Positions 7,725 to 41,438 of a stretch of 41,822 bases of DNA are shown here, one piece after another. The position numbers and the translations under genes were made by a program. Within the stretch, counting starts at the first letter, position 1. The number at the start of each line of letters is the position of its first letter. A model generated the notes under the pieces. It searched no databases, was not told where the DNA came from, and worked only from the letters and a program-made list of their open reading frames with translations. The stretch is from a virus. The stretch covers positions 1 through 41,822 of IMG/VR virus record IMGVR_UViG_3300007760_000034. One strand, 5' to 3'.

Positions 7725-10700
7725 GTGGCGACGTTCACGACGCCGGTACTGCCCGGTAGAACTAAGGGCCTAGATACTTCTAAGGATCGGTGGCGACGCA
7801 GGTCTGCGATCGCTATGCAAAACAATGTTCCGTTGGACATTGTTCGAGAGGTTTACCTTTACGATCAGGAGCGCGTGAACCGCGGCGGCAGCCCAATGTC
7901 TGACCGTGAGGCTGCGGTAGCGATCCTTGGCGCTCAGGGCAAGGGGGGTGAAACGGGTCGTATCGGCGGGTTTGTTGAGAACGCCGCGTCGGATTTGAGA
8001 GACATCGTTTTGGGTTTGCCGCAACTACCGGGGTTTATTTTGAAGGAACCCGCGGAGATGGGCGACCCGGAAACTGGTTTGGGTCCGTCGGTGTCGGCTG
8101 GGTTTGAAGCCTTGTCGGAGGGTGATTTCGGCAAGGGGATAGCGAAGATTGCTGGTGCTCCCGGTTTGCGTCTAATCCCCGGTTCGTTCACGGCGGAGAT
8201 GATCGGCGGTGGCTACGAGGGAGATAAGGGTCCGGGGGAACTGGCAAAGCATCCGTTGTTCACGTTTCTGGATTTGTTGCCGGTGGCGTCCAAGGCTGGT
8301 TTGACTGATGCTGCGTTGAGTCGTCTCACCGGGTCTAGCCCGTGGAAGCGGGCTGCTCAGAATCTGGAGAACCGTGGTTGGGGTCGTTCGGCTACGGCTA
8401 CGGCTCGCGAGTTCCGTAAGGGTCAGCGGCTCGCTGAGGAGGGTGTGATCGGCGAGTCTTCGTTGGGTCGCACCGGTGTTGGTACTCACAGCGAACTACA
8501 GCAACATGTTCTCAACTGGATCGACACGTTCGACGATGCTGAACTGACTGCTACGTGGGATTATTTGGAGCAGGGTCGTTGGAAGTCGGGTGATCCTCCT
8601 CCTAAGTGGGCGACGGATTCCGGCCGGGGTGATCAGTGGGTTTCGATGGCTGAGGACGCTAAGGCGATGGGCGACTGGTACGCCAAGCACGGTGAAACAA
8701 CCTCTGGCGAGGTGTTGTTGGTCAACGGGGAGCCGTATCCGAACACGCCGGGTGTCAGGAAGCATCTGAAAGACATTCAGGACGCTAAGGCTGGGAAGAA
8801 GCGAACCGGCAAGTCGAAGGAAACAACCGAGTCGAAGCGTGTCCGCGCTGAAACTGTTCATGCGGAGAAGACCGCGCAGATCGCCGATTTGGAAGCCGGG
8901 TTGTCTGTTGTCGATGTGGTCAGGTTCTCAGATGAGATAACCGAAGCGGTGTCTGCGACTGAACGGTTGTCGATGGTCGAGTTGGGTCAAGCCGACGACG
9001 TGGCTAAGGCTGAACGGGTTTTGAAGTCTGATACTGCGGCTGCTGAACGGTTGGCTCCGAAGCGTTCTCAGGTTGTTGAGGAGTCGCCGTGGCCTGAGGA
9101 TGTTCCAGCGTTGCGTCGCGGCGAGTCGGAGTGGTTGGAGGGCAGCCGTTCCCCAACTGTTGAGGGCGAAGTGGTTGCTACGAAGCAGACTGGTCGTGCC
9201 CCCACCACCGAGGAAGGCAAGTTGTTGGTGGTGCGTCAGAGGTTGGATGGCGAGGTTGTTGCGGAACGTGCAGCCGAGTTGATTGAGCGGCGTGTCGCGG
9301 CGCAGGAACACTTGAATCGTGTTGTGGCGTTGCGTCGGCTGACTCCGGCTCAGGCTCGTAATGTGAAGACGGCAGCGGAGGGCCGGTTGCATACGGGTTC
9401 GTTGGCGGATCGTGTCCGCGCTTTGAACGCCCAGATGGGTGACGCTGCCGTGAATCTGGATGAAACGATAACGGTTCCGAAGTTGGATTCGGTTGGCCGT
9501 CCGGTCGATGTGGAGATGACCCGGTTGGCGTACGAGGTCGACGAGTTGAAGGTCAAGGGTTGGGAAGAAAAGGTTGTTGACGGGACGACGTTTTCGAAGG
9601 AGCCGTCGAAAACGCGTGTAGCGAAGATGGTTCGCCGGTCGTTGAAGAAGCGCCGCAGTTCGCTGTTGGCTTCTGCTGAGGAGGCTGGTGCTTTCAGGGT
9701 TGGGACACCTGAGGCGGCTGAGGCTGTTCGTGTCAGGATTGGTCGGACAATCAACGACGAAGTTGTCGACTTGTTGGACAGGCATTTGACCGACGAGGCG
9801 ACGATTCGGGTTGCGAAGGGCCACGACCCTTCCGATTACCGCATCGACCATGTAACCGGCAAGACTCGCCCCGGCGACAGTTATCCGACTCGGTTGACGA
9901 CACGGGAACGTGACCTGATTCGAACGAAGCGGGGTACCCGCAAGGTTGTCGATGAGGGTGGCACCGAGTGGGAGATTTACGAGTTTGATTCAACGGTTGA
10001 GGCTAGTTGGGGTGCTCGCCGCACTCTCAGCAAGGAGTCTCCTGCTGCTGAGGGTGAACTGGTTCACGGCAACACGGCGTTCAAGAACTTTTCTGACGAG
10101 GCGTTGGAAAAGTTGGCGGTGATCGACGAGTGGATTGAGCGTGACGCCGCCCAGTTTGTCGAATCGGAACGCGCCGGTTTGACTGCCGAGGCTGCTGATC
10201 AGATAACGGTTGATTTGTTGGATGCTGCGAACGTGGATGCTGCCGAGGCGTTTGTCATGGTTGGTGGTCGGCCGGTGTCGGTTGCTGCTCTGCGTGTGTT
10301 GGATCGTGCTGCCGAGATTCTTCCTGAACGGTTGTCTGCCGGTGTGTCTCGTAGCCCGGAGTGGGAACCGATCCGTCAGATGGCTGAGGGGGATTTTGTA
10401 AAGCCCGGTGTTGCCATCGTTGAGTCTTCTTCTGAGCAGGCTGGCCGGTTGGCGGAGAACACGGTTCATTTGAATCAGATCGATGAACGGATCGCTGCGT
10501 TGGAGGCTGGCGCTAAGGCGGCTTCTGTTCCTGCTGACGAGGTGTTGTCTGCGGAACTGGCGTTGAATCGTCTCACGCAGTTGGAGTCGCAACTTCAGGA
10601 CCGTATCGCACGGGTGAAAGCGGGTGAAACTAAGCCGGGTTTGCGGGAAGTGAAAGAAACTTTGAAAGCGCACCCGGATGAAGCCGAGTTGCGAAACTTG

Positions 10701-13517
10701 TACGACCAGTTGGACGCCATTGATTCGCAGGGCACAGCGCACCCGTTGTTCAGCGTTAGGGACGATCTGGCTGCTGCTGCGGCCGCGTTGGAGGATGCTG
10801 GTATACGCGTCAAACCGACGCAGGCTAAGGCGAAGTCGGCTGCTGGTACTCGCCGGGTTCGCACGGTTACAGAACCCGGCGACCCGGCGGCTTACGCTGT
10901 CGCTAAGTCTCGTAGAAAGTCAACGGCCGGTAAGGTTGATTCGGCTCGGAAACGCAAGGCGCGGATCGACACGGCGTTCTCTACTCTCAAAGCGGCGATA
11001 ATCGGCACGGTGAAAAACCCCGGTCCGTTGCGTAAAGCCGAGATCGCTGCCCGTACCGGCGATTTGACAGCGGCTCGGAACCATCTTCGCGTAGCGCGAA
11101 ACAAACTTGATTCGAAGACGATGCAGGAGGTTCGCCGTCTGGCTGAAGACAAGTCTCCGAAACTGGCTAACGAGATTGCTTCTATCGAGGCACGCATCGA
11201 CGCTGTGTATGCAGATATGCCTACTAATCAGGCGCTCAAAACGTCGCGGAACCAGTTGGCTGGTGCCCGGCTCAGCCAAGCGAAGGCGGCTAGGGCCATC
11301 GAGTTGAACACGTCGGAGGAATCCCGGCTGGCCGCGAAGATTGCCGACGAAATGTCGGAAGCGGAGATCGCTGCCGCTAAGTGGGCTGACAATGTGCGTA
11401 ACTTGCCTGCGCGGCTGCAACCGATGTATAACCGGGTGCTTAGTTCGTTGTTGGCTAAGCGGCTGTCGGCTCCAACGGTGCCGGATAACGCTACCCGCAA
11501 GTTGACGTTCGGGAAGTACAAGGAGGCTGCTAAGGCTGCCGGTGTCGCAGACAAGGAGTTCAGGCTTCTTGAACGGGAGGCGTTTGAAACGGTTCATTCG
11601 CTGCGGGCGGCTGGTTACGAACCGGTGTGGTTGCCGCACCGTCAGGTCGGCAACCGGGGCCGCGCTCCCGGCAAACTGTTCGGTCAAAAGATTGTGACTC
11701 CGCAGGCGTTCAAGCAGCGGTACCTCAACCCGGAGCCTTACATCCGCAACCTCGCTGTCGCGTTTGAACAGAACTCCGCTGACTTTATTAGGCGCACAGC
11801 AACCGAAGCCTTGTATTTCGGCGACGAAGCCGCTGGGTTGGATGGTTTGTTCAACATGTTCGGTAAGACGTGGGACGACCTGATGGACATGTATTCGGAT
11901 GAGATAGCGGCTCAGCGTGCCGCTAACCCGCATGTTCCTCCACAAAACATTGCTCAACGGGTTATCCGTAAGGACTGGGCGACAGTCAACCCGACGAAAT
12001 GGGGGTTGAGTGAGAAGTGGGCACCGCAGTCGAAAATCAAATACAAGCGCCGGGGTTTGGGTGTCGACCCTGAGGATTCTGTGTTGGCGATCGAGAACAT
12101 TTACATGCCGCGCGGTGTGTCGGCAACGGTCGAGGGGATGCAGAAAACTGGTGGGCTGATCCCGTTTAGAAATACTTACGACCAGATCATGGACGTGTTC
12201 CGCGTGTCCGCGTTGGCGCTGTCTCCTCGGTTCTTGGTTTACAACGCTATCGGTGGTCTGGCGATGCTGATGGTCCGCACCGACCCGACGGTGCTGACGC
12301 AGTTGCAGCGCGCCAAGCAGTTTGTCGACGAGGGCAAACTGCCACCGGAGATTTCTACCGGTGCTGCGATGGTCGACCCGGATTTGACGAAGGCGTTCAC
12401 GCAGGACATTTCAAGGCTCGCGACCGACAAGCGCACCGGGTTTATGTGGGGCATCGGCGAGGGCCGATGGTTGGGGGAAACAATCCGCAACGTGCAGAAG
12501 GCTGCGAACAGGTCGTTCCAGATCAACGAGTGGTTTGACAACGTGTTCCGGGCCGCTGCTTATCTCCACGAGTCAGACAAGGCGCTGGCGCGGGGGGCCA
12601 CGGCAGCCGAAGCCGCTGAGTCTGGTATCAAGTTGGCAAACAAGATTCTGCAAGATTGGGACGCGATGCTTCCGTGGGAGCGCACCATCATGCGGCGCAT
12701 CTTCCCGTTCTACGGTTGGATGAAGCATGTGTTGAAGTACACGTTCACGTTGCCGTATGACCATCCGACACGGGTGGCGGTGCTCACCAACTTTGCTGCC
12801 AACGAGATGGAGGATTACCGCTCCGGGATTCCTCAATGGATGGCATCCACGTTCTTTATCGGCAAGGAAGGCCCGGATACGAAGCAATGGTCGGTGAACA
12901 TGCGGTCGATGAACCCGTTCGCGGACGTGGCCCGGTATGCCGACTTTGATTCACGCGAGTACGGGTCTGGTGTGGTCCTCGGGTTTTTGACGCAGATGTC
13001 TCCGATCGCGTCGTCGGTGATGGAGTCGATGGGTGTCAGCCCGATGTCTGGCCGCGCCCGGTTGTACCCGGAGATGACGTACGACCCGGAGACGGGGCGG
13101 CTGCGGTCTATGGCTCCCAACATTCTTCATTCGTTGCCGAAGTCGATTGTTCCTCAGGTAGAGGGGTTCGCTGGGCTGGTTGAACTGTCTGGCGTTCGGT
13201 CTACCAGCAGGGAACTACGCAACATGCGGGTCAACAACCCGGATGCGTTCGTGGGTCGTATCTGGTCGTCGTTCGGTTTGCCGTTTGCGCCTCGTAAACG
13301 GTCGCGTACGTTCGAGTTGCAGAGGTCTGCGCTGGCTCGTGAGCAGGCTGCGGGTGATGCTGTAAACCGGGCGTTGCGTACAGGCGACTGGGGAGATGCG
13401 CTAGGATACGAACAGGCGCGGATACGTGGCCAAGTGTTCAAGGTCGACAATCTGTACGCGCTGGCAAAACGCAACCCAGAACTATTGGAGGTGATCTTGA
13501 GTGCCTCGGGTCGGTAG
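7725..13517 (+). CDS. Very large internal virion (ejection) protein, 1930 aa
   Basis: The largest gene, read from GTG 7725, 6 bases after the preceding stop. Residues about 30-170 contain a compact N-terminal part (ASDLRDIVLGLPQLPGFILKEPAEMGDPETGLGPSVSAGF). Residues about 350-1300 are mostly charged helix and coiled coil. Residues about 1440-1830 are a conserved-looking block with aromatic and hydrophobic motifs (SPRFLVYNAIGGLAMLMV, WDAMLPWERTIMRRIFPFYGWMKH, NPFADVARYADF) that resembles a segment of other giant phage internal proteins. No catalytic motif was recognised. In tail-less-core podoviruses such proteins are packed in the capsid and ejected with DNA. Codon use matches the neighbouring late genes. 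Confidence 0.7.
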   Translation: MATFTTPVLPGRTKGLDTSKDRWRRRSAIAMQNNVPLDIVREVYLYDQERVNRGGSPMSDREAAVAILGAQGKGGETGRIGGFVENAASDLRDIVLGLPQLPGFILKEPAEMGDPETGLGPSVSAGFEALSEGDFGKGIAKIAGAPGLRLIPGSFTAEMIGGGYEGDKGPGELAKHPLFTFLDLLPVASKAGLTDAALSRLTGSSPWKRAAQNLENRGWGRSATATAREFRKGQRLAEEGVIGESSLGRTGVGTHSELQQHVLNWIDTFDDAELTATWDYLEQGRWKSGDPPPKWATDSGRGDQWVSMAEDAKAMGDWYAKHGETTSGEVLLVNGEPYPNTPGVRKHLKDIQDAKAGKKRTGKSKETTESKRVRAETVHAEKTAQIADLEAGLSVVDVVRFSDEITEAVSATERLSMVELGQADDVAKAERVLKSDTAAAERLAPKRSQVVEESPWPEDVPALRRGESEWLEGSRSPTVEGEVVATKQTGRAPTTEEGKLLVVRQRLDGEVVAERAAELIERRVAAQEHLNRVVALRRLTPAQARNVKTAAEGRLHTGSLADRVRALNAQMGDAAVNLDETITVPKLDSVGRPVDVEMTRLAYEVDELKVKGWEEKVVDGTTFSKEPSKTRVAKMVRRSLKKRRSSLLASAEEAGAFRVGTPEAAEAVRVRIGRTINDEVVDLLDRHLTDEATIRVAKGHDPSDYRIDHVTGKTRPGDSYPTRLTTRERDLIRTKRGTRKVVDEGGTEWEIYEFDSTVEASWGARRTLSKESPAAEGELVHGNTAFKNFSDEALEKLAVIDEWIERDAAQFVESERAGLTAEAADQITVDLLDAANVDAAEAFVMVGGRPVSVAALRVLDRAAEILPERLSAGVSRSPEWEPIRQMAEGDFVKPGVAIVESSSEQAGRLAENTVHLNQIDERIAALEAGAKAASVPADEVLSAELALNRLTQLESQLQDRIARVKAGETKPGLREVKETLKAHPDEAELRNLYDQLDAIDSQGTAHPLFSVRDDLAAAAAALEDAGIRVKPTQAKAKSAAGTRRVRTVTEPGDPAAYAVAKSRRKSTAGKVDSARKRKARIDTAFSTLKAAIIGTVKNPGPLRKAEIAARTGDLTAARNHLRVARNKLDSKTMQEVRRLAEDKSPKLANEIASIEARIDAVYADMPTNQALKTSRNQLAGARLSQAKAARAIELNTSEESRLAAKIADEMSEAEIAAAKWADNVRNLPARLQPMYNRVLSSLLAKRLSAPTVPDNATRKLTFGKYKEAAKAAGVADKEFRLLEREAFETVHSLRAAGYEPVWLPHRQVGNRGRAPGKLFGQKIVTPQAFKQRYLNPEPYIRNLAVAFEQNSADFIRRTATEALYFGDEAAGLDGLFNMFGKTWDDLMDMYSDEIAAQRAANPHVPPQNIAQRVIRKDWATVNPTKWGLSEKWAPQSKIKYKRRGLGVDPEDSVLAIENIYMPRGVSATVEGMQKTGGLIPFRNTYDQIMDVFRVSALALSPRFLVYNAIGGLAMLMVRTDPTVLTQLQRAKQFVDEGKLPPEISTGAAMVDPDLTKAFTQDISRLATDKRTGFMWGIGEGRWLGETIRNVQKAANRSFQINEWFDNVFRAAAYLHESDKALARGATAAEAAESGIKLANKILQDWDAMLPWERTIMRRIFPFYGWMKHVLKYTFTLPYDHPTRVAVLTNFAANEMEDYRSGIPQWMASTFFIGKEGPDTKQWSVNMRSMNPFADVARYADFDSREYGSGVVLGFLTQMSPIASSVMESMGVSPMSGRARLYPEMTYDPETGRLRSMAPNILHSLPKSIVPQVEGFAGLVELSGVRSTSRELRNMRVNNPDAFVGRIWSSFGLPFAPRKRSRTFELQRSALAREQAAGDAVNRALRTGDWGDALGYEQARIRGQVFKVDNLYALAKRNPELLEVILSASGR

Positions 13518-13802: not shown

Positions 13803-14069
13803 CTTTGCGGCAGCGTAATGCTTTAGTTCGCGGCGGTACCTGACCCGTTGACGGGCCGTGTATCCGCCCCATATTCCGAACTCTGATTCGAACTCTAGGG
13901 CGTAGTCAAGACAACAGTTGTTGACTGGGCACGTTTGACAGGTGGCGACGGCTGTCTGCTTGGTGTGGACGGAGAAGAACAACTCCGAGTCCATGTTCTT
14001 GCAGGATGCCTGTTCACGCCACCAGTCTCCGTCGGCTATCGCCCGGAGTCGGCGTTCAGAAAGGTTCAA
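13740..14069 (-). CDS. WhiB-family iron-sulfur transcriptional regulator
   Basis: A 109 aa protein with the complete WhiB signature: Cys23 in ASCKNMDSELFF, then C44xxC47 and C53 in CQTCPVNNCCLDYALEFE, which bind a [4Fe-4S] cluster, followed by the turn FGIWGGYTARQR and a basic C-terminal tail for DNA or sigma-factor contact. WhiB proteins are confined to Actinobacteria and their phages, so this gene is the strongest host marker in the window. Phage WhiB proteins are known to interfere with host WhiB function (mycobacteriophage TM4). It overlaps recT by 14 bases upstream and the holin by 63 bases at the convergent ends. Confidence 0.92.
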   Translation of the reverse strand: MNLSERRLRAIADGDWWREQASCKNMDSELFFSVHTKQTAVATCQTCPVNNCCLDYALEFESEFGIWGGYTARQRVRYRRELKHYAAAKLRQGRWGTVTELGSDDTLSE

Positions 14070-14835
14070 TCTTCGCCGTCCTGTCTTTCACCCATGCGAG
14101 GGCGTCGTCCAGTTCCGGGTAGGTGAGGTTGTCGACGTTCCCGAATATGCCCTTGAACTCGTCGCGCATTTCTCGCGTCACTCCGGGTGCTGTCATCCGT
14201 GACCTGATTTCCCGATGGTCGGCTGTGACGGGTTGAACCTTAGTGACGGTTGTGTCTGGCTGTAGGGATTCCCGCGCTTTTTCGATGGACGCCTTCGGTG
14301 TGGGGGGTGGCGGGGGTGGTGCGAACGCTTCTGCCACATCTGATTCTCTGATTTCTTTGACCGGTTCGGGTGGTGTGTCCCACCGTTCCTCTACGGTGGG
14401 TAGGGACACGTCGAACGCACGCCTGAGGGACATGACTTCAGCGCATTTGACTGCCATCTCGGGTCCGTACTGTTTGTTGCTTCCCGATTTGGGGTACCGG
14501 CCCTTGTAGCGGAACGGGTGCATCATGTCTTTGCGGTACACCTCGACAACTGCCCACCATTCTTTGTCGGTGTCGCCTTCGTCTACGACGACGATGCCGT
14601 TGAGTTGGTGCGATTGGTGCGCTAGGTGCAGCAGCCCGTCTCTGGTGACGTATGTGCTCTTGCCGCTTTTGTTGCCTATGAGAACAACGTGTTTGAGCAG
14701 GGGGTCGAAGCCGTACCGGTTGCAGACTTCGACGAGGGCGTGTGTCGCCGTGTCGTTCGGGTTGAGTCCCAGATATTTGAGGACTTCTTCCTGCTTCTCT
14801 GGTGTTATCACCGGTGCTCGTACTATTTCAGTCAT
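14056..14835 (-). CDS. recT: RecT/Bet-like single-strand DNA annealing protein
   Basis: A 259 aa protein. Residues about 30-145 carry the RecT-family core: ALVEVCNRYGFDPL, then YVTRDGLLHLAHQS, then WWAVVEVYRKDMMHPF, then YGPEMAVKCAEVMSLRRAFDVSLP. The C-terminal half has a polyproline linker (about residues 167-175) and a small charged helical domain. RecT-type proteins anneal complementary single strands in recombination-dependent replication and repair. No partner exonuclease (RecE or lambda-exo type) was recognised. The ATG at 14835 is preceded by GGAAGG, and the gene diverges from an XRE-like gene across 43 bases. Confidence 0.8.
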   Translation of the reverse strand: MTEIVRAPVITPEKQEEVLKYLGLNPNDTATHALVEVCNRYGFDPLLKHVVLIGNKSGKSTYVTRDGLLHLAHQSHQLNGIVVVDEGDTDKEWWAVVEVYRKDMMHPFRYKGRYPKSGSNKQYGPEMAVKCAEVMSLRRAFDVSLPTVEERWDTPPEPVKEIRESDVAEAFAPPPPPPTPKASIEKARESLQPDTTVTKVQPVTADHREIRSRMTAPGVTREMRDEFKGIFGNVDNLTYPELDDALAWVKDRTAKIEPF

Positions 14836-15605: not shown

Positions 15606-15867
15606 TTAGCATCGCTCCTTCTTCGTTGTCCACGTTGGAGATCCACTCCATTTGTTCGAGCATCCACACGGTTTGCACGGCTGCTACCTGTGCTAGTTGG
15701 GTGGCGTCTAGGTCTTCTAACAGTCTGCGTGTACCTGATCGGCTGAAATCGTTGTCGTTGTCCCACGCTGCCCGCAGCAACCCGACCGCTACTTTCCCGG
15801 CCTGTATCACAGGATGTCCAGAAGGGTGGGTTCTTCCCGGGTTTCCTGAGCCTTCGGGTTCAGCCAT
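15544..15867 (-). CDS. Hypothetical protein, 107 aa
   Basis: An ATG frame with AGAGGA upstream, starting within the last 61 bases of the methylase gene. The product is acidic and helical (for example RRLLEDLDATQLAQVAAVQTVWMLEQMEWISN). It is not recognised. Coupled expression after the methylase suggests an accessory early protein. Most of its length is not shared with any other likely gene, which supports it. Confidence 0.6.
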   Translation of the reverse strand: MAEPEGSGNPGRTHPSGHPVIQAGKVAVGLLRAAWDNDNDFSRSGTRRLLEDLDATQLAQVAAVQTVWMLEQMEWISNVDNEEGAMLSVEEQICGLGMEIALSEVGA

Positions 15868-16703
15868 ACTACTTCTGTCCTCTTGCCTCGTGGTTTGATG
15901 TCACGGGTCCAGTCGTCACCCTTGCCCCGTTGACTTGCTGTCATTGTAGTAACCCGGTCGAACTCGACCCGGGTCCAACCTGATGTATCAAACTTGTTGT
16001 AGATGGGGTGGTCGTAACCGGATACTACGACATACCCGTTTGCGCTGATCAGGGCGTCGATCATGGTTTCGTGCTGGTCGTTACTCATTTCGTGGGCGTA
16101 GTACTCGTCTTCGACGCGGGTGTCGTGAACGTACGGTGGGTCAACGTAGAACACCGTGTCGGCCCCGTCCCAGTAGTTGATCGACTCGATGGCGTCTCTC
16201 TGTTCTACCTGAACGGCGCTGAGGCGGTCGTAGATGGCACCCAACCGGTTGATGAGGGATTTCCACCCCGCTACGACAGCGGACTCGCCAGAGACGCTTA
16301 TAGCGGCTCTGGACCAGTTGCCTTGTGTGCGGTATACGCGGCCTACGACGCTCTGGTTCATGTTGACGAACATCGCCCACGCCTGTTCCACGGGGTCCAG
16401 AGGATCGGTTTCGCCTTTGACGATGGCGATTGCTTTGACGAACTCGTCTTTGGAGTACAGCGTTGACCGGAGTCGACGTTCGAGTTCGATGGAGTGTTCG
16501 GGGTGCTGGATGACCCGAAACAGGTTGACGAGGTTGCCGTCGAGGTCGTTGTATACCTCCACGGGTGAGGGTTTGCGGTTGAGCAGCACCGATCCGCCGC
16601 CTCCGAATACGTCAACAAAGAGTTGGTCGTAAGGTATGAGAGGAAGCAGTTCGTCCAACATGCCGCCTTTACCTCCCGGCCACTTCAGCAGCCGGAGACT
16701 CAC
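15807..16703 (-). CDS. dam: DNA adenine methyltransferase (Dam/D12 class)
   Basis: A 298 aa enzyme with the D12-class order of motifs: LKWPGGKG at residues 6-13 (AdoMet-binding motif X), FVDVFGGGGSVLLNR at 29-43 (motif I) and VDPPY at 187-191 (catalytic motif IV). The central region (about 60-180) would be the target-recognition domain. It transfers methyl to adenine N6; the recognised sequence cannot be read from the protein, though Dam-type members often use GATC. In phages such orphan methylases protect DNA from restriction or mark it. No cognate endonuclease is adjacent. ATG overlaps the upstream stop (ATGA). Confidence 0.9.
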   Translation of the reverse strand: MSLRLLKWPGGKGGMLDELLPLIPYDQLFVDVFGGGGSVLLNRKPSPVEVYNDLDGNLVNLFRVIQHPEHSIELERRLRSTLYSKDEFVKAIAIVKGETDPLDPVEQAWAMFVNMNQSVVGRVYRTQGNWSRAAISVSGESAVVAGWKSLINRLGAIYDRLSAVQVEQRDAIESINYWDGADTVFYVDPPYVHDTRVEDEYYAHEMSNDQHETMIDALISANGYVVVSGYDHPIYNKFDTSGWTRVEFDRVTTMTASQRGKGDDWTRDIKPRGKRTEVVWLNPKAQETREEPTLLDIL

Positions 16704-17904: not shown

Positions 17905-17997
17905 TTATATGCCTAGAGGTTCTGTAATCACGACCCAGATGACGTAAACGAGGCCCCATATGACAAGCCACATGATCGCCCCTGACAACTCATCCAC
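17905..17997 (-). CDS. Putative single-span membrane peptide, 30 aa
   Basis: A GTG frame that begins in the last codons of the VWA-protein gene (GTG overlapping its stop) and reads MDELSGAIMWLVIWGLVYVI and on to a TAA at 17905. Almost the whole second half is one hydrophobic span rich in Trp, Val and Ile. An internal ATG at 17973 would give a 22 aa version preceded by AGGGG. It fills a gap in an otherwise gap-free operon, and the membrane pattern is not expected by chance, but its size keeps the call tentative. Confidence 0.4.
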   Translation of the reverse strand: MDELSGAIMWLVIWGLVYVIWVVITEPLGI

Positions 17998-20248
17998 GGA
18001 TCGAGTCGGATATGCGGTCGGCTAGACCTTCCACAACCTCGACGACACCTGCTTCGGTGTCGTAGAGGTTGACCGCTATGGTGTCTAACCCATATTCCTT
18101 CGGCGAGTCGGTTCCTACACCTACTCCGACGACGTGGAGTCTCCGGTCTGGGAGTTGCGCCATCGCTTTCGCCCGTCTGCACTGTGCTTCGAGCATGACC
18201 CTCTGGTTGTCATGGTCCTCGGCGGGCATCGCACCGTCGGTGTAGTAGAGCAAGATCCGGTCGGTTGCCCGTTGCGTGCAGAGCATGTCAATGTAGGTTC
18301 GCATCGTCAACCCGTCGAGGTTCTGATGGGCGGCATGGAGCGAAGCGACACCCGATTTGGCTGCTTCGTCCCACGGTTCCGCAAAGTTCTTGACGAGTTG
18401 GATGGTCGCAAGCGACGCCACATTTGATCCGACCCTACCCCGCAAATCGTCGGCCACTTCTGGGTCACAGTCGACGTTGTGATCGTCTTCACCCACCAGG
18501 TACCGGCCTCCGGTGTGCCCGGCTACCGCAAACGCAATACCTAGCCGCGCAAGCAGCGTTGCTTGCGCGTACGCGAGTTCCACGAGGTATTCGTTGACAT
18601 CTCCAAGGGTTGAACCGGATTGGTCGACTCCGATGAGTACGGCATAGGATCGTTTCCGGGGTTTGTCGATCCGGCGAAATGCTCGACGGTTACCGGTCGG
18701 AACTCGTGCAAGTTTGCTGCCATGCAGCCTTCCTCGCACAAGGTTCGGTGTCGACGCTGACCTCCTGTTCATGCCGAGTGCGTCCGCCAACTTGCGTTGC
18801 GATTTATGAACCGGCGCTTGAACTTTCACTTCGAGGTCGCTGGATTGGTCGAACCCGCCTCCTGCCGGGAACTTGTAGTCGGCGAGCAACTTCACCCCGT
18901 CACCGTATACCGGTACTTTTTCGTAGTCGGGTCGCAGGATCAGAGGCACGTAGCGGCCTTCACCCGAATCTCCAACCAGTCCACTTCCGCCCGGCATTTG
19001 CATCAGGTCGTCGAGGTGTTCCGAGGTGTCCCCGGCTCGGGACTCGTTCATCGCTGCTTGTATCTCAGCCAGAACGGGTTCGAGACTCTCGACGGGTTTA
19101 TCGGCTCCACGGTCAGTCCATTTGGCTCGACCGAACGCCTCTGCTCGAGCAGATCGGTCTGACCGTGCGACAAGTTCCGACCTTTCTTGTTCGAGTTTCT
19201 TTTTGTCTCGAAGCCGTTGGCTTTCTTTCAACTTGCCGTCGTCGCCGAGGTCTTTACCGGACTTGATCGGCTGGGATGCTGCCCGACCGTTTCCGGTGCG
19301 GGAGGTGTCCTCCCCGGTCTGCTCGGGTTGCATACTTTCGAACAACCCGTATGTTTCTCGGGCGTATTCGGCGAGCACAATCCCGGCAGCGACCGCTTCG
19401 GCGGTGGTTTCGAGTTTGAACTTGTCGAGAACACGTTTGACGTTCGGGTCGTTGAGACAGGCCAGAACCGTTTCCGACTTCAGCACCGGTTTCAGGTCGA
19501 GATCGTGTTCGACCTCCAAGTTGACTGCGACACCTACTTGGTATCCGACGGGGCCTTCGACGATGCCTTCACCGGCAGCGGCCCGCACGACGAGCCCTTC
19601 GGCGAGCCGCGCCATCTGTTGACCTAAAGCGGATCGGCTATCGCCGACTGCTTTGTTGATGCGGGCGTCTTCGAAGGCGTTGGCCAGCAGGGGTGCGTCG
19701 GGGTTGAACCATGACGCAACTTCCAACCCTGATCTCGCCAAAACCCGTGGCCCGTTTACACATTGCCGGATGTAATACAACCCTGCGTCGTCGTGCCTGT
19801 CTATGAACGCTTCGGAGAACTCTTCCGGCATACCTTCCATCAGTTTGGCGATGCCGAGTTCTACTCGTTGGCAGAACTCGACATCAACGGGTTTCGTTGA
19901 GCCTTGGCTGATGTGGGCTGCTTCGTGTAACAGCACCCCGACGGTGATGTGGTAGAGGCACGATTCGGGTTCTTCGTCGCATACGCACGGGTTGTCCGGG
20001 TCTATGTCGGCGAAACCGGGGTCTAACGGTAAGTGAACCGTGGCTCCGTCTGTGCAGGGTCCCTGCGAGTGTTGGTTGATTGATACCCGCAGCCCGTTGT
20101 CTCCTGCTGAGGTTCTCACTATGTCTGTGAGCCTCGGCAGGAGACGGGCCGCTACCCGTGCCGCTTCTGCGTAGGATTCGGCCGTGGCGGGCTGGTTGAC
20201 GGGTAGTTCTATACCGGGGTGTTCGACGCTACTCAAGTTCCACCCCAC
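17990..20248 (-). CDS. VWA-domain protein with HEAAH metallopeptidase-like motif (DUF2201/CobT-like)
   Basis: A 752 aa protein, GTG start, partner of the AAA+ gene just upstream (20-base overlap). Residues about 100-118 read YHITVGVLLHEAAHISQG, an HExxH zinc-peptidase motif (H108, E109, H112). Residues about 330-420 are a charged Lys/Glu/Asp linker. From about 535 comes a von Willebrand A domain with an intact metal-ion site: DQSGS (D542, S544, S546), a Thr near 649 and YTDG (D671). A metallopeptidase-like domain plus VWA next to a MoxR ATPase is the layout of DUF2201-type bacterial proteins; CobT-like phage proteins share the VWA part. Substrate unknown. Cysteines at CVCDEEPESC lie just before the HEAAH motif. 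Confidence 0.82.
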   Translation of the reverse strand: MGWNLSSVEHPGIELPVNQPATAESYAEAARVAARLLPRLTDIVRTSAGDNGLRVSINQHSQGPCTDGATVHLPLDPGFADIDPDNPCVCDEEPESCLYHITVGVLLHEAAHISQGSTKPVDVEFCQRVELGIAKLMEGMPEEFSEAFIDRHDDAGLYYIRQCVNGPRVLARSGLEVASWFNPDAPLLANAFEDARINKAVGDSRSALGQQMARLAEGLVVRAAAGEGIVEGPVGYQVGVAVNLEVEHDLDLKPVLKSETVLACLNDPNVKRVLDKFKLETTAEAVAAGIVLAEYARETYGLFESMQPEQTGEDTSRTGNGRAASQPIKSGKDLGDDGKLKESQRLRDKKKLEQERSELVARSDRSARAEAFGRAKWTDRGADKPVESLEPVLAEIQAAMNESRAGDTSEHLDDLMQMPGGSGLVGDSGEGRYVPLILRPDYEKVPVYGDGVKLLADYKFPAGGGFDQSSDLEVKVQAPVHKSQRKLADALGMNRRSASTPNLVRGRLHGSKLARVPTGNRRAFRRIDKPRKRSYAVLIGVDQSGSTLGDVNEYLVELAYAQATLLARLGIAFAVAGHTGGRYLVGEDDHNVDCDPEVADDLRGRVGSNVASLATIQLVKNFAEPWDEAAKSGVASLHAAHQNLDGLTMRTYIDMLCTQRATDRILLYYTDGAMPAEDHDNQRVMLEAQCRRAKAMAQLPDRRLHVVGVGVGTDSPKEYGLDTIAVNLYDTEAGVVEVVEGLADRISDSIRG

Positions 20249-21326
20249 TCAACTCTTCCGGTATCCGTGTCAGCAGGTCCCCTATGGGGTCGCTGGAGTC
20301 TTGGACAAGTTCGGCTGCTGTTGGCTTGGAGTACTTCGCCCAGTCGTGATGGTCGAGTACGTGTACGACTTTGCTGAACGATTGGGTGTCCATCCGTTCG
20401 TACACTTTCGACATGGCTTCACGCACCGGGTGGTATTGGAGAAGTTCCACGAAGTTCATCAACGAACGTGTACCTGCGGTGATACCGAGGTTTCCTTCGT
20501 CGATTGACTTGCGTAGGTCCTTCCATGCCATCAACCCGCACACCACCTGCCACGCCGGAACCCTGTCTAGTTCCCTAGACTCGATGTGGTTGAGGAGTAT
20601 CTCCGCTTCGATCTTCGAGTCCGGCCACCCGACGGCGATGTGCGACAACCTGTCGGCATCTGCTTCGGATAGTGGCAGCAAACCTGCGTACTGGGGCATC
20701 CAGTCGGGGTTTCCTGTTGCGATGATGAAGTTGTGTGCGTGCTTGAGCAGGATGCGTCCGTCGTAGGCGTCTAACGCGAGTTGCGCTGAGTCGTCGAGGA
20801 CGGGTCGTGCCACATGCAGCACAGCGGGTGGTGCAGCGTTCCACTCGTCGATGCAGATAACTCCCGGTCGCCCGAATGATCGGGCTAGACGGGACTGCAC
20901 CCACTCTGTTGTGGAACCTTTCAGTTCGTAGTGACCTGTCACGTCTTCCCGTTCGCTTGTCTCTCCGAGCGGGATGCGCTCGAATGGGACTCGCATCAGG
21001 AAGGCCATGTGGCGGGCCAACTGTGTTTTCCCTACCCCTGACGGACCCCACATCATTGGAACCTTTCCTCGTTGGAGGTCGACGGCCACCGAGTAGACGA
21101 GGCCGTCGTGGTCAATGAAGGTGGATTCGTTGGGTATCTTGATCCGATCCGACTCGGGAAACGATTCGGGGTCGTACTTTGGTAGTTCCACTCCTTTTGG
21201 CCCGTATGTGAACGAGTCAGGGGTGGGTACTGTTACGACACCCGATTGTTTCCCGATCTTCTCGGGGTGGACCACGATGGGTTCGAGAACTTCCCGTGGT
21301 TCCTCATGTTCGGGTTTTCTTAGCAC
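20229..21326 (-). CDS. MoxR/CobS-type AAA+ ATPase
   Basis: A 365 aa protein. After about 75 variable residues comes the ATPase: Walker A GPSGVGKT (94-101), the MoxR-type loop ETSEREDVTGHYEL (122-135), Walker B VICIDEWN (156-163), sensor 1 ATGNP (203-207) and an Arg-containing region ADADRLSH (223-229). MoxR ATPases form hexamers that remodel a substrate delivered by a VWA partner, here the overlapping downstream gene. GTG 21326 has GGAAGGAG upstream. Annotation as cobalt chelatase CobS would be misleading because no corrin genes are present. Confidence 0.87.
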   Translation of the reverse strand: MLRKPEHEEPREVLEPIVVHPEKIGKQSGVVTVPTPDSFTYGPKGVELPKYDPESFPESDRIKIPNESTFIDHDGLVYSVAVDLQRGKVPMMWGPSGVGKTQLARHMAFLMRVPFERIPLGETSEREDVTGHYELKGSTTEWVQSRLARSFGRPGVICIDEWNAAPPAVLHVARPVLDDSAQLALDAYDGRILLKHAHNFIIATGNPDWMPQYAGLLPLSEADADRLSHIAVGWPDSKIEAEILLNHIESRELDRVPAWQVVCGLMAWKDLRKSIDEGNLGITAGTRSLMNFVELLQYHPVREAMSKVYERMDTQSFSKVVHVLDHHDWAKYSKPTAAELVQDSSDPIGDLLTRIPEELSGVELE

Positions 21327-24451: not shown

Positions 24452-24544
24452 GTGATTACGGTCGTGGACTACCGCAACGGGAATCAACATATCAAAGGAG
24501 ACACGGTGTGTCAACACGAAAGATCAGGACGTTCACGGCGTTAG
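24452..24544 (+). CDS. Possible short leader ORF, 30 aa
   Basis: A GTG frame preceded by GGAAGGAGGTTCC, the same ribosome cassette used in the leftward operon. It reads MITVVDYRNGNQHIKGDTVC and ends in a basic tail, overlapping the start of the next gene by 37 bases. It may be a true small gene or a leader whose translation influences the downstream DNA-binding gene. Confidence 0.35.
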   Translation: MITVVDYRNGNQHIKGDTVCQHERSGRSRR

Positions 24545-24822
24545 ATGGCGATACGTGGGATGCGTTGGCTACGAACGCTGAACGCGTGAATGGGTCGTGG
24601 CAGGTAGAGATGTCTAATCAGGAGTTGGGAAACATTCTGGGTGGTGACCGGAGTCGGCGGGTTGCGTCGTTTCGTGCGAAGCGGCTCATCGAGTTCGGGA
24701 TGGTTCACGCGGAGTATTCGGAGAAGAACGGTCGTCCTCAACCGAAGGTGTACGTGATCGACTCTGAGTGGGTGGGGAAGTCGCCGAAGGTTGGTGACTA
24801 TTACCCGGTGGAGGCGGGCTGA
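24508..24822 (+). CDS. Putative winged-helix DNA-binding protein, 104 aa
   Basis: GTG 24508 has AAAGGAG 7 bases upstream. The core TWDALATNAERVNGSWQVEMSNQELGNILGGDRSRRVASFRAKRLIEFGMVHAEYSEKNGRPQPKVYVID has helix-turn-helix character (SNQELGNILGGDRSRRVASFRAKRLIEFG) followed by a beta wing. It lies directly before, and overlaps by one base, the replication-initiator candidate, so it may regulate it or assist at the origin. No family named. Confidence 0.6.
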   Translation: MSTRKIRTFTALDGDTWDALATNAERVNGSWQVEMSNQELGNILGGDRSRRVASFRAKRLIEFGMVHAEYSEKNGRPQPKVYVIDSEWVGKSPKVGDYYPVEAG

Positions 24823-25274
24823 TGTCTATTCGTGTAATGTCGGATGTGTGGGACCTGTCTGAGTCCACGGGGTCGGCCAGATTGGTTTTACTGGCTATTG
24901 CAGACTCCTGTGACCATGATGGAACTAACGCTTGGCCCGCTATCGAAACGATCGCAAAGAAAACTAAAGTTTCACGGTCGACTGTCAAGCGGGCGATCAA
25001 GGAACTGGTTGCTTTGGACGAGTTGCGTGTTGTGCCTGGTCCTGTTCATATTCGTTCTGATCATCGGCCGAACGGTTATGAAATCAGTTTTTCACGGGGG
25101 CTCAATCTGAACCCTCGTGAGTCCACGGGGGTTCAATCTGAACCTCACGGGGGTTCATTTGAGCCTCCACGGGGGTTCACCCATGAACCCCAACCCGTCC
25201 TTACCCGTCCAGACCCTAACCGATTCTCAGAGTTTCTCAATAACGCAAGGGAGTCTTTGAAGAATGGGGATTGA
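24822..25274 (+). CDS. Helix-turn-helix replication initiator candidate with in-gene origin
   Basis: A 150 aa protein starting at ATG 24822. Residues about 5-75 are a helix-turn-helix domain of the type found in phage replication initiators (VWDLSESTGSARLVLLAIADSCDHDG, then AWPAIETIAKKTKVSRSTVKRAIKELVALDELRVVPG). Residues about 90-125 are low complexity (Gly, Pro, Glu) because the DNA beneath is four palindromic repeats. The C-terminus is short and polar. In lambda, the O initiator gene likewise contains the origin iterons. No helicase or loader gene is nearby, so it would recruit host factors. It follows the winged-helix gene with a one-base overlap. Confidence 0.65.
   Translation: MSIRVMSDVWDLSESTGSARLVLLAIADSCDHDGTNAWPAIETIAKKTKVSRSTVKRAIKELVALDELRVVPGPVHIRSDHRPNGYEISFSRGLNLNPRESTGVQSEPHGGSFEPPRGFTHEPQPVLTRPDPNRFSEFLNNARESLKNGD
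25093..25191. repeat. Four iteron-like palindromic repeats: candidate replication origin
   Basis: Units beginning CACGGGGG start at 25093, 25124, 25146 and 25168 (spacing 31, 22, 22). Each contains a dyad: GGCTCA-ATC-TGAACC (one mismatch), GGTTCA-ATC-TGAACC (perfect), GGTTCA-TT-TGAGCC (one mismatch) and GGGGTTCA-CCCA-TGAACCCC (perfect). The 22-base spacing is two helical turns, so the units lie on one face of DNA. They sit inside the initiator gene and are followed by an unusually AT-rich stretch (about 25220-25430), as expected for an unwinding element. Confidence 0.7.
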
Positions 25275-25431
25275 CTGGAATCGTGTTAGAAGAACAAATG
25301 CTCCGCTATCTGAGGAGGAAATGAAAGAAATAGTTGAACGGTTGAACAAATATGTTGAACAACACCGATCCATCGACGAAAAGTATTATGAAGAAGACGA
25401 TGGGTGGGACTACCGGAAGGAAGAAGAATGA
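25264..25431 (+). CDS. Hypothetical acidic protein in the AT-rich region, 55 aa
   Basis: ATG 25264 overlaps the initiator stop by 11 bases, and the TGA overlaps the next ATG (ATGA). The product begins MGIDWNRVRRTNAPLSEEEM and continues as a charged helix (KEIVERLNKYVEQHRS) with an acidic end. Codons are AT-rich (AAA, GAA, ATA, TAT), unlike the rest of the genome, matching the supposed unwinding region. Coding is supported by the tight overlaps. Confidence 0.65.
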   Translation: MGIDWNRVRRTNAPLSEEEMKEIVERLNKYVEQHRSIDEKYYEEDDGWDYRKEEE

Positions 25432-25781: not shown

Positions 25782-26194
25782 TGGCTCGTGCCCCTGCACG
25801 GACCGTCCTTGCGCGGCTAGCAACGTATGGGCTGTCTCCTACGACGATTGCGACGATTTTTGACATCGACGTGGAGAAGGTTCGTAACGCAGTCGACGAC
25901 GTTCCCGTTTCTTCGGCGGTACGGGACGACGAGGACCTCCGTGTAGGGGTGCGTCGCGTCGCATGGCGTGTCATCGAAGAAACCATGTTGATGCTCGACG
26001 AGGGTTCACCACAGGTCAAACAGAAGATGATCACCAACCTGTTTACCAAAATGATGGCGATGCTCGGCGAGGAATCATCGGAGGACATGTCGGCGTTGCG
26101 GGGCGACATCCAAATCATGCTGGAAGAAATGGGAACCAGCGCCGCTGAACCCGTCCCAGATCAACCTGAACCGGAACAAGACGGCCCGGCGTGA
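25781..26194 (+). CDS. terS: Terminase small subunit (candidate)
   Basis: A 137 aa protein immediately before the large terminase, overlapping it by 4 bases. Residues about 1-40 form a helix-turn-helix (ARLATYGLSPTTIATIFDIDVEKVRNAV), residues about 60-120 helices suitable for oligomerisation, and the C-terminus is acidic (PVPDQPEPEQDGPA), possibly the TerL contact. Small terminases bind the packaging start on DNA. The assignment rests on position, size and HTH. Confidence 0.7.
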   Translation: MARAPARTVLARLATYGLSPTTIATIFDIDVEKVRNAVDDVPVSSAVRDDEDLRVGVRRVAWRVIEETMLMLDEGSPQVKQKMITNLFTKMMAMLGEESSEDMSALRGDIQIMLEEMGTSAAEPVPDQPEPEQDGPA

Positions 26195-27816
26195 ACTTCG
26201 AACCGTTCGTTTCGCGGCTGTCGATCCGCACGAAACAGCAAACGGTTGAGCCGCTGCATCCCAACTGGGCGCAACGCCAAGTGTTGGATGCTGTCAACAC
26301 TCAATACAGCGAAGGCAAACCGGTTCGCATCGTGGTGCTCAAAGCCCGCCAGTTGGGAATCTCAACGATTTCGGAAGCCCTCATGTTCTCGTGGGTGGTG
26401 TTGCACGAGAACACGTACGGCCTTGTCATCGCCCACGAAATCGACGCATCCGAATACTTGCTGAACATGACCAAACTGTATTGGGAAACATTCCCATTCA
26501 AGGATCTGTATACAACCAAGTATGTTTCCCGCAAAGAACTGGCGTGGGAAGAAACCGGTTCCAGCATCCGCATAGCGACAGCGAAAAACATGCGTGCCGG
26601 TCGTTCACGAACCATCAACGCCATGCACGGGTCGGAAATAGCGTTCTGGGATCGGCCAGACGAAATGATGCTCGGGTTGCGGCAAACCATCCCCAACCAC
26701 CCGAAGTCGATGATCATTCTCGAATCAACCGCCAACGGTGTCGGCAACTGGTTCTACGACACATGGCAAAACGCGGTAACCGGCGACAACGACTTCAAAC
26801 CGCTGTTCTTCCCGTGGTGGGAACACCCCGAGTACACGGCATCGTTTTCCAACTTGAAGAAAGAAACGCTGTCTCATCTCGACGAAGACGAACGGGTACT
26901 CAAAAAGATGGGGGTTGACGACGACCATCTCGTGTGGAGACGGTGGGCGATACGCAACCTCGCCGATTCCAACATCGAACGGTTCATGCAGGAATACCCG
27001 GCGACCCCGGAAGAAGCCTTCATAGCGTCCGGCACCAACGTGTTCCCTGTCGAAAACCTGAAGCAGGTGTACGAACCCAAAAACGGTGTCAAAGGGTTTC
27101 TGCAACGCAAAGGCAACTCGGTCGAGTTTATTCCCGACCGGTCAGGGTCCCTCACCATTTTCCGCAAACCCTCATCGGATCTGTCGTGGGGAAAATACTT
27201 TGTTGGCGCAGACCCCACCCACACCACGATGGGAGACAACGCGTGTGCTCAAGTCATCAACCGCCGCACCTACGAACAGGTAGCGGTCTGGAATGGCAAA
27301 ATCGACCCGATGACGTTCGCTGAGGAACTCGCCAAACTGGGTGCGTTCTACAACCACGCAACAATCTCAACTGAAGTCGAAGGACCCGGGTATGCGACCA
27401 TCGGCCGACTCGTCGAAATCGACTACCCGCACATTTGGCGCAACAGGTGGGCTGACAAGACACCCGGCAAGATTTCAGAAACAATGGGTTGGTCAACAAC
27501 GTGGAAACGCAAAGAATGGGCGATCGGCTGGTTGATCAAACTCATAGCCGACCGCGACATGACCATCCACGACGCGAAAACGTATGACGAGATGCGAACC
27601 TACGTCACACTCCCCAACGGCGGCTACGGCCCCGCAGACGGCTCTGGGCGGTCTTACGACGACTGTGTGATGGCTATGGCCATAGCGTGCATCTGCGCCT
27701 CTACAGAGGGACCTGTGACCGGCTACGAGGGACCTATGGGCGGCAGCGAAGACGCAATCGACGATCTGCCGATTCAACCTGCATGGGAACAATGGGAAGA
27801 ACAGGTGACAGCATGA
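26191..27816 (+). CDS. terL: Terminase large subunit
   Basis: A 541 aa packaging motor, GTG start. ATPase: Walker A-like KARQLGIST (51-59), Walker B region AMHGSEIAFW with E149 (144-153), coupling motif ILEST (177-180). RNase H-like nuclease: GADPTH (D341), TEVEGPG (E395), and YDDCVMAMA (D490/D491) provide the metal-binding acids. It translocates DNA into the prohead through the portal and cuts concatemers. The circular assembly suggests circularly permuted or cohesive ends, not decided by sequence alone. Confidence 0.93.
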   Translation: MNFEPFVSRLSIRTKQQTVEPLHPNWAQRQVLDAVNTQYSEGKPVRIVVLKARQLGISTISEALMFSWVVLHENTYGLVIAHEIDASEYLLNMTKLYWETFPFKDLYTTKYVSRKELAWEETGSSIRIATAKNMRAGRSRTINAMHGSEIAFWDRPDEMMLGLRQTIPNHPKSMIILESTANGVGNWFYDTWQNAVTGDNDFKPLFFPWWEHPEYTASFSNLKKETLSHLDEDERVLKKMGVDDDHLVWRRWAIRNLADSNIERFMQEYPATPEEAFIASGTNVFPVENLKQVYEPKNGVKGFLQRKGNSVEFIPDRSGSLTIFRKPSSDLSWGKYFVGADPTHTTMGDNACAQVINRRTYEQVAVWNGKIDPMTFAEELAKLGAFYNHATISTEVEGPGYATIGRLVEIDYPHIWRNRWADKTPGKISETMGWSTTWKRKEWAIGWLIKLIADRDMTIHDAKTYDEMRTYVTLPNGGYGPADGSGRSYDDCVMAMAIACICASTEGPVTGYEGPMGGSEDAIDDLPIQPAWEQWEEQVTA

Positions 27817-39577: not shown

Positions 39578-40219
39578 ATGTCGTACAGGTTTCTCCATAA
39601 TCCCAAGTCGCCCGAATACTTGGAGTGGAAGTCCCAAGTTCTCAGCCCGACGTTCCCGTGGTATTGGAACCAGTCAACTGCGGGACCGGTATGCCTCACA
39701 GAACTAGGGCTGACCGCAGATGACGACACATCCTTCTGGGGTCACTGTGTGCTGTCACGCCCTGACTCGGCTCCCTACTGGGACGGGGTGAGTTCTCCGG
39801 TCTGCTCCGAACTGTTTGAGCAGACCGTGTGGGTGATGAATGAGATCGCCACCGTCAACAATGTCTCGTTCCAGCCGATACGAATGGCGTTCAACTGCGT
39901 GGTACCCGGCGAGGTGCCCATGTCGATCCCGCATGTTGACCACTACTTCCCGCACGACACCTTCATCATCTACCTGTCTGAGTTCACGGGTGGCAACACA
40001 TGGTTGGAGGGACTTGGAGAAGTCGAACCGGAGGAGGACATGATCCTCATGTTTGACGGAGATGTGCGCCATGCCGGTTGCAGGCCCACGGGAAGCAACG
40101 AGCGCCGTGTTGTGTTTGTCGGAACCAGCGGATTCGTCCCTGAGCACAAGATCCACCGCACCCCCGACGCACGCGCCCAATACTTTGAACCCCTATTACC
40201 CGACAACCATAAGGAGTGA
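39578..40219 (+). CDS. 2OG-Fe(II) oxygenase, first of three
   Basis: A 213 aa protein with the cupin-type iron site: IPHVDHYFPHDTF supplies H119 and D121, MFDGDVRHAGCRP supplies H165, and ERRVVFVGTSG supplies the Arg (176/177) that binds 2-oxoglutarate. The strand LSEFTGGNTWLEG between them is typical. Such enzymes use 2OG and O2 to hydroxylate a protein side chain, nucleobase or small molecule; substrate unknown. It lies directly after the fibre genes and before two further oxygenases. Confidence 0.82.
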   Translation: MSYRFLHNPKSPEYLEWKSQVLSPTFPWYWNQSTAGPVCLTELGLTADDDTSFWGHCVLSRPDSAPYWDGVSSPVCSELFEQTVWVMNEIATVNNVSFQPIRMAFNCVVPGEVPMSIPHVDHYFPHDTFIIYLSEFTGGNTWLEGLGEVEPEEDMILMFDGDVRHAGCRPTGSNERRVVFVGTSGFVPEHKIHRTPDARAQYFEPLLPDNHKE

Positions 40220-40224
40220 CCTAA

Positions 40225-40848
40225 GTGTCCATTGCAACTGACCTAGCCGAACCTCAGACCACTATGAGTGCAGAACCCATCTGGGTTGATCCGTTCATCT
40301 GCCAGTACCAGATGACAGACACGTCGTGTTGTCCTGAAGCAATCGTGAATGCGAACCGGTCTACCCGGTGGGGCATCTCCGGCACAGCGGGCGGAACAAA
40401 CGCTTACATGCGCGACTCAGACCAGTTGCATTTCTTGGAGGCATCGCCTCCGGTGGAGCATGAACCAATCCTCGCTTTCGCTCAAGAATGCTTGGACCAT
40501 TACGTTGGTGAACGTAAGCAGGCCGGGGAGGTGCCCCGGTTCGGGTACACGGAGGGCTACAACATTCTCCGCTACAAGCCCGGTCAGGCATACCACGCCG
40601 TCCATTCAGACCAAGGCCCGGCTTCCCCGATAGGCAACAGGCATCTCACGTTCTGCATGTACCTGAACACGATCACCGACGGCGGTGAGACAGACTTTCC
40701 GACGCAGGAAGCAAAGGTGTCACCGGTGGAGGGTCGGGCTGTGATCTTCCCGGCTGTCTGGACTCATGCCCACCGGTCGCTGCCAGCGAAGGTTGACCGC
40801 TACCTGTTCAACGTGTTTTGGGGATTCTTCCCACCACAGGCAGCATGA
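40225..40848 (+). CDS. 2OG-Fe(II) oxygenase (prolyl-4-hydroxylase-like), second of three
   Basis: A 207 aa protein, GTG start (ATG 40264 is an alternative). It has the prolyl-4-hydroxylase layout: YNILRYKPGQAYHAVHSDQ with H127 and D129, LTFCMYLNTITDGGETDFP, then VIFPAVWTHAHRSLPAKVDRYLF with H183 and a basic residue (R192) for 2-oxoglutarate. GGETDFP is a hallmark of the P4H group. In phages these enzymes' targets are unknown; hydroxylation of Pro-rich fibre proteins encoded just upstream is a testable idea. Confidence 0.85.
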   Translation: MSIATDLAEPQTTMSAEPIWVDPFICQYQMTDTSCCPEAIVNANRSTRWGISGTAGGTNAYMRDSDQLHFLEASPPVEHEPILAFAQECLDHYVGERKQAGEVPRFGYTEGYNILRYKPGQAYHAVHSDQGPASPIGNRHLTFCMYLNTITDGGETDFPTQEAKVSPVEGRAVIFPAVWTHAHRSLPAKVDRYLFNVFWGFFPPQAA

Positions 40849-41438
40849 TGGGCACCAAGTTTGCTGCGTGGACGAAACCCGACAAGGGGACTTGGTACAC
40901 GTCGGTCAAGTCAGGTATCCCCGCTGACGATCTTGATTTCATCACCCGGTATGCGCTGTGGCGTGAAGCCACCGAAGAATGGGAAGGTGACGACCAATCA
41001 CCCGGCATGTTCGCCGCCTACAAAGACCCGGTGTTCATGTTCAACCAGCACAGGTTGCATCCTGTCATGGAGGAAGTCACCGGGCTGCGGCTGCATCAGA
41101 CGTACAACTACTTCAGGGTGTACCGGCCGGGTGCGATTCTGGAGAAGCACACCGACCGGCCAGCGTGCGAGATTAGTTGCACAATGCTGATCGGTTCCAA
41201 CTACGGCGGCGCATGGCCGATTCTTGCCGACCATCCTGCACATGGTGAAACGTCGGTGACGCAGCAACCCGGCGACATGGTTGTGTACCGGGGCAACGAG
41301 GTGGAACATTGGCGCGACCCGTTCGACCCAGCCCTGTACGGCGGCGGGCTGGACTCGTACCATGTGCAGGTGTTCACTCATTATGTTGATGCTGACGGCC
41401 CGTATGCCATGTGCGCCGGGGACGAGGTGCGGCTGTGA
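40845..41438 (+). CDS. 2OG-Fe(II) oxygenase, third of three
   Basis: Begins ATG ATG at 40845, overlapping the previous stop. The 197 aa product has GAILEKHTDRPACEIS (H102, D104), the double-stranded-helix strand QQPGDMVVYRGNEVEHWRDPF (H155) and YHVQVFTHYVDADGP at the end. This is the pattern of phage and bacterial oxygenases related to clavaminate/phytanoyl-type enzymes. It differs from the other two, so the three are a cluster of divergent members, not recent copies. Confidence 0.8.
   Translation: MMGTKFAAWTKPDKGTWYTSVKSGIPADDLDFITRYALWREATEEWEGDDQSPGMFAAYKDPVFMFNQHRLHPVMEEVTGLRLHQTYNYFRVYRPGAILEKHTDRPACEISCTMLIGSNYGGAWPILADHPAHGETSVTQQPGDMVVYRGNEVEHWRDPFDPALYGGGLDSYHVQVFTHYVDADGPYAMCAGDEVRL

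Follow-up and report, generated by a model that had tools for sequence, protein, structure and literature searches.

The locus considered here raises the question of whether a virus carries its replication origin inside the gene of the protein that would act on it and, if so, what sets the specificity of such an origin. The window analyzed is a full virus record of 41,822 bp (IMGVR_UViG_3300007760_000034), which is possibly incomplete. In it the unit CACGGGGG occurs exactly four times, at 25093, 25124, 25146 and 25168, always on the plus strand and always within a single helix-turn-helix gene, that of the initiator (Table 1). These are exact matches, at the positions and the spacings of 31, 22 and 22 given in the original prediction, and there are none elsewhere in the window. 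It had also described dyads of the GGTTCA...TGAACC type, two of them perfect, and this too is borne out: perfect dyads are found at 25130 and 25174 and nowhere else in the window, and the first (GGCTCA-TGAACC) and third (GGTTCA-TGAGCC) are each off by one base, the spacers of iterons 1-4 being 3, 3, 2 and 4 bp. A 76-bp segment of the gene holds six copies of the half-site GGTTCA/TGAACC, three per orientation, a number reached in none of 1000 codon shuffles and none of 1000 dinucleotide shuffles of the gene; likewise, none of 2000 dinucleotide shuffles of the gene yielded two or more copies of CACGGGGG. The same detection method recovers the known iterons of lambda. The array sits after the DNA-binding domain, inside the initiator gene, which is the lambda-type arrangement.

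The product of this gene matches PF13730 (HTH_36) in a Pfam scan (E 1.2e-13; 51.1 bits against a curated cut-off of 25), and in PHROG profile searches it matches phrog_1032 (E 2.8e-22, 81 bits, residues 1-142) and phrog_391, labelled 'O-like' (E 1.1e-14). Overall, nine phrog families of replication-initiation or primosomal character constitute its best and broadest matches; weak matches to the GntR and MarR families are also present in the Pfam scan. An AlphaFold2 model, built from a 10-sequence alignment, shows an N-terminal winged-helix HTH_36 domain (residues ~1-90) with helices at 3-12, 18-28, 41-48 and 52-64 and strands at 68-72 and 84-88, a disordered linker at 92-129 (pLDDT<50) and a short C-terminal helix at 132-147. 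The linker is the portion encoded by the iteron DNA. The protein stops at residue 150 and lacks a long C-terminal domain, the profile of length 281 being covered over 1-144 only; this truncation is common to L003-L012, and the long domain is present in L014, L015 and most HTH_36 initiator relatives but absent from the clade of the window. Solved structures yielded no match when searched by sequence with the HTH profile, and a Foldseek search of the model against the PDB gave generic winged-helix matches only, none with E <0.001, the top ones including the Rep/initiator entries 4pql, 5kbj and 4pt7 at weak E-values. Directly 5' of the initiator, a 104-aa gene (24508-24822) resembles a second small DNA-binding protein, with no significant family match.

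Table 1. Features of the initiator gene and the adjoining DNA, in window coordinates
Feature	Position	Strand	Basis
Initiator gene, 150 aa	24822..25274	+	PF13730 (HTH_36) and phrog_1032 matches, AlphaFold2 model
Recognition helix codons, residues 52-64, RSTVKRAIKELVA, including Lys56	24975..25013	+	AlphaFold2 helix limits; helix/half-site association
Iteron 1, CACGGGGGCTCA-ATC-TGAACCCTCGTG, extended dyad	25093..25119	+	Sequence
Iteron 2, CACGGGGGTTCA-ATC-TGAACC, perfect half-site dyad	25124..25144	+	Sequence
Iteron 3, CACGGGGGTTCA-TT-TGAGCC	25146..25165	+	Sequence
Iteron 4, CACGGGGGTTCA-CCCA-TGAACC, perfect half-site dyad	25168..25189	+	Sequence
Second conserved element, CAACCCGTCC-TT-ACCCGTCC-AGACCC, AACCRTC copies in 10-bp phase	25191..25216	+	Conservation, phased pairs, adjacency to last half-site
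AT-rich stretch, 58.5% AT, possible unwinding element	25223..25422		Highest 200 bp of window
Small ORF, 55 aa, occupying the AT-rich stretch	25264..25431	+	Sequence, relatives alignment, AT3

Relatives of the initiator on viral contigs (L002-L015, 40-100% identity) allow the constant and the variable parts of this arrangement to be told apart. Loss of the repeats from close relatives that conserve the protein would speak against an origin; the opposite is observed, with the 31/22/22-bp repeat frame kept at the same place in every close relative. The repeat sequence itself differs between genomes and is largely uniform across the copies within one genome. Thus, the window and the distant L015 have the half-site GGTTCA, L003 and L004 have GTGTCA (with one GGTTCA arm retained in their first iteron), L005-L008 and L014 have GTGACA, and L010 has GCGTCA. 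The window and L003 are 96% identical in the DNA-binding domain and differ at 3 of 72 N-terminal residues, including K56Q in the recognition helix; their iteron-coded linkers differ at 13 of 34 residues, as counted by eye on the alignment. They hence constitute a near-minimal pair, with one recognition-helix change and nearly all half-sites switched. Judging by these alignments, the constraint is on the iteron DNA rather than on the encoded peptide, because the repeats occupy different reading frames.

The half-site also follows the DNA-reading helix across more distant initiators. Of 57 gene pairs that have the same helix class at <60% identity, 48 share it; of 464 pairs that differ in helix class, 67 do. 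Lys56 goes with GG[T/G]TCA in six of eight representatives, as against none of the 43 that have no Lys there, and in the remaining two with Lys56 this is the joint-top or second half-site. Among other T-x-x-R helices, Arg53 is found with GTGACA (13/15) and Ser53 with GTGTCA (8/10). The Lys rule holds in Bacillota genes that were fetched later (L283/L284; helix SRATVKR, half-site GGTTCA). On the tree, Lys56 and the GG half-site change four times each, with only two independent pairs on well supported branches; a formal phylogenetic test of co-variation was dropped since the 55-column tree is too poorly resolved. A strict one-to-one recognition code was also rejected, GTGTCA being common to helices of several kinds; the relation thus amounts to an association. 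Across the relatives compared, site and helix change together, so that origin specificity could be predicted from sequence. The binding specificity of initiators is usually learned protein by protein; here each sequenced phage presents a natural protein-DNA pair, and the prediction of origin specificity and of phage and plasmid compatibility becomes directly testable.

A survey of loci from viral contigs, bacterial genomes and named phages indicates how widespread such arrays are. Of the initiator-like genes recovered, 153 were long enough to test and 73 carry a significant GNNNCA half-site array; removal of near-duplicates left 51 representative array genes. In these, successive half-sites are mostly 21-23 bp apart, i.e. 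two helical turns, and 43 of the 51 have their copies in more than one reading frame. A blind, iteron-first scan of all viral contigs with a pattern of the GTGTCA type (ACGGGGTGTCA-N2-5-TGACAC) placed the site within an HTH_36 initiator ORF in 27 of 36 matching contigs, in 26 of them on the same strand, and 25 of these 27 contigs were new. The GGTTCA type is rare, being found in six contigs, two of them with the site in an HTH_36 initiator gene, one of which is a record with an identical protein; an additional scan for relatives with one longer query found nothing. The array-bearing gene recurs amid quite different neighbor genes, including those of prophages and cultured phages, and in named phages it adjoins genes for a helicase, a primase/helicase or replication protein P. 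The negative controls, short HTH_36 proteins of ~85 aa from Clostridia, have essentially no repeats. As a separate observation, many of the stand-alone ~85-aa HTH_36 proteins of L055-L089 (mostly Clostridia genomes), which are devoid of repeats, have the helix SRSTVKRAI; this is the same helix as that of the window, apparently with no origin role.

Beyond the iterons, an alignment of eight sequences shows the DNA at 25191-25216 to be better conserved than any other block in the region. Its core, AACCRTC (more exactly [AC]CC[AG]TC), is repeated every 10-12 bp immediately after the last half-site in many HTH_36 initiator genes that are unrelated to one another, starting mostly 3-8 bp, or approximately one more helical turn, from that half-site. 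Of 99 representative genes, 22 have phased pairs, where the remainder of these loci predicts 0.48, and the copies number 133 in the forward orientation against 47 in the reverse and 48.7 in codon shuffles. They occupy all three reading frames; in Arthrobacter phage Andrew, one run reads RTV-LEPS-LNRP-VNRP when translated by eye. Of the 25 initiator genes retrieved by the repeat-first scans, 12 have the element as well; loci with copies phased at 10-12 bp after the iterons include L209, L222, L224, L225, L220, L216, L211 and L212. None was found in the Bacillota genes examined. Three of these (L283, L290 and L292) show, by eye, dense intragenic dyads followed by AATACCCAT/AATAACCA-like repeats ~15 bp apart, which are perhaps the counterpart of the second element. 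Two identifications of AACCRTC were rejected: as a feature of lambda, since lambda O has no phased pair, and as the DnaD recognition element (5'-TnnT-3' pairs; PMC10201434), since the GTC variants by eye do not fit. A literature search of open-licence papers returned none that describes the element.

The element stays constant while the half-sites change and, therefore, we infer that its reader is not the recognition helix; the simplest guess is a host factor, and a different second element in Bacillota would fit this. Extending this, we tentatively propose, as a possibility that we consider less likely than not, that HTH_36 phage initiators share a two-part intragenic origin, which would combine variable dyad iterons, whose half-site is set by a few recognition-helix residues, with a fixed, one-turn-phased AACCRTC element read by a host replication factor and not by the initiator. 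If this were true, the sequences of thousands of uncultured phages would reveal the specificity of their origins and which of them are compatible. The conserved AACCRTC element points to a shared step in the loading of the host replisome.

Downstream of this element, the claim of a 200-base AT-rich stretch unlike the rest of the genome was confirmed, as no other 200 bp of the window are as AT-rich as 25223-25422 (mean of 200-bp stretches 42.7%, sd 3.3). It is occupied by a small ORF whose start position is kept in close relatives and whose AT3 is 0.59 against a mean of 0.36 (sd 0.06); the amino-acid make-up is thus not the sole cause of the AT excess, because third codon positions are also AT-rich. 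The stretch is clear in the window and L003/L004/L008/L010; L005-L007 and L012 show it weakly and farther relatives do not have it, and an AT-rich element was, therefore, rejected as a general part of these origins. Local composition and GC skew had both been suggested as checks on the origin: the AT content came out in favor, and the skew, with no clear switch at 25 kb, is uninformative either way.

How else might the array be explained? One could see in it an operator, with the helix-turn-helix protein as an autorepressor of its own gene that has no role in replication. HTH_36 is a generic DNA-binding domain, the weak GntR/MarR matches lean in this direction, and even a downstream intragenic array could serve as a roadblock. 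We nevertheless consider this unlikely, because the top and broadest matches of the protein are to the nine replication-initiation and primosomal families, the array follows the domain instead of lying at a promoter (no plus-strand promoter was found there), its spacing and position are those of the lambda ori, and replication genes are its neighbors in named phages. It is more improbable still that the array binds the protein as a partition, incompatibility or packaging-related site while the main lytic origin lies elsewhere; the terminase right downstream (26191-27816) and a RecT/Bet-like annealing protein (14056-14835), which could support other modes of replication, would accommodate such an arrangement, but the array stays in a gene of a replication-initiation family despite the quite different neighborhoods of the relatives.

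Least probable of all, to the point that we rejected it, is the view that the linker simply contains a repeated peptide, or the product of a recent tandem duplication, with no function at the DNA level. A disordered linker that tolerates many substitutions could host such repeats, but the copies lie in differing frames (spacings of 31, 22 and 22 here; 43/51 genes in the survey), so that the encoded peptides differ, and relatives have another half-site in every copy, a replacement that entails numerous changes of amino acid. A tandem duplication would, moreover, not be expected to give inverted half-sites.

Thus, we consider it very probable that the region from 25093 to ~25420 is the replication origin of an uncultured phage and lies within the gene for the initiator that acts on it, as originally predicted; the prediction is supported by the conservation of the array in relatives, the initiator families matched by the protein and the retrieval of initiator genes by a search with the repeat alone. 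In the mechanism that we propose, dimers of the 24822-25274 protein would read the GGTTCA/TGAACC half-sites through helix 52-64, with Lys56 among the specificity residues, and conserved parts of the fold might recognize the constant ACGGGG flank. The bound dimers, two helical turns apart, would form a nucleoprotein core that opens the adjoining AT-rich DNA, following which the host replisome (helicase and polymerase) would be loaded, the AACCRTC element possibly being a docking or opening site during this loading. As both are in one gene, the site and its reader are predicted to be inherited and exchanged together. The recourse to host enzymes was earlier linked to a phage without its own helicase or polymerase; DnaB_C and PolA have no match in the record, which may be incomplete, and this is only compatible with that view.

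The remainder of the record offers some unrelated observations. Three adjoining genes at 39578-41438 match overlapping PHROG families that bear the conflicting labels endonuclease V, 2OG-Fe(II) oxygenase and ferrochelatase; all three may belong to a single family that was duplicated. On the minus strand, at 17990-21326, a cobalamin-labelled protein and an AAA ATPase form a CobT/CobS-like pair; the leftward cluster to which they belong also includes a DNA methyltransferase (15807-16703) and the above-mentioned annealing protein, and a perfect sigma-70 consensus, TTGACA-17-TATAAT, lies ahead of this cluster (22121-22093, minus strand). At 3439-13517, proteins of 874, 546 and 1930 aa have no Pfam or PHROG match (the last searched in two pieces, the second against PHROGs only).

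For lambda, P22 and phage L, an origin inside the initiator gene, with iterons specific to the type, has been established or proposed (PMC8022706; for lambda and the Stx phages, PMC7466680; also PMC5043065). As in lambda O/ori and the gp18 genes of P22 and phage L, the iterons of the window lie mid-gene in their own initiator; as in lambda and P22, where they are of ~20 bp, there are four; and as in lambda, the array is beside an AT-rich region. In the lambda-type phages, too, the iterons of related phages differ and match their own initiator. In contrast to lambda, the iteron sequence is unrelated, the initiator has only 150 aa, and there is an additional phased AACCRTC element. Further, no lambda P-like loader was recognized among the window genes searched, and Phage_rep_O, the Pfam family of the lambda O N-terminus, is not among the nine HTH families obtained up to E 0.1 in the Pfam scan. 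Of the description 'lambda-O-like', then, the way of working stands and close family membership does not, the best match being HTH_36/PHROG_1032.

Parallels in domain and layout are also provided by plasmids. In pSK41 Rep, a winged-helix N-terminus reads four boxes central in the rep gene and the ori-coded part is a dispensable linker; in pPR9, a phage-type pfam13730 N-terminus with the adjacent DNA replaces the pSK41 origin region, and its rep region supports replication and is compatible with pSK41 (PMC5703833). The iteron-encoded linker of the window resembles the ori-coded linker of pSK41 Rep, and the window protein, whose gene carries the repeats, has a pfam13730 N-terminus like that of the pPR9-type Rep (here taken from the review account). 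The plasmid Rep, however, has a DnaG-binding C-terminal domain; the protein of the window ends in no more than a short helix, and it has no RepA_N match in the Pfam scan. Among phages, HTH_36-type genes with intragenic iterons include Gordonia phage DatBoi gp84, Arthrobacter phages Andrew gp47, Orcanus gp44 and LittleTokyo gp44, Bordetella phage PHB09 O and others, all annotated only as HTH protein, O or hypothetical. Several of these have AACCRTC repeats after the iterons; they differ from the window in their longer proteins and in half-sites of GTGACA, GTGAAC/GTGCAC or GGTGCA rather than GGTTCA. Neither the breadth of the arrangement across HTH_36 initiators nor the helix/half-site correspondence was found described among open-licence papers. 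Thus, the intragenic iteron origin is already known as a kind, and the AACCRTC element and the correspondence between helix and half-site are its new parts.
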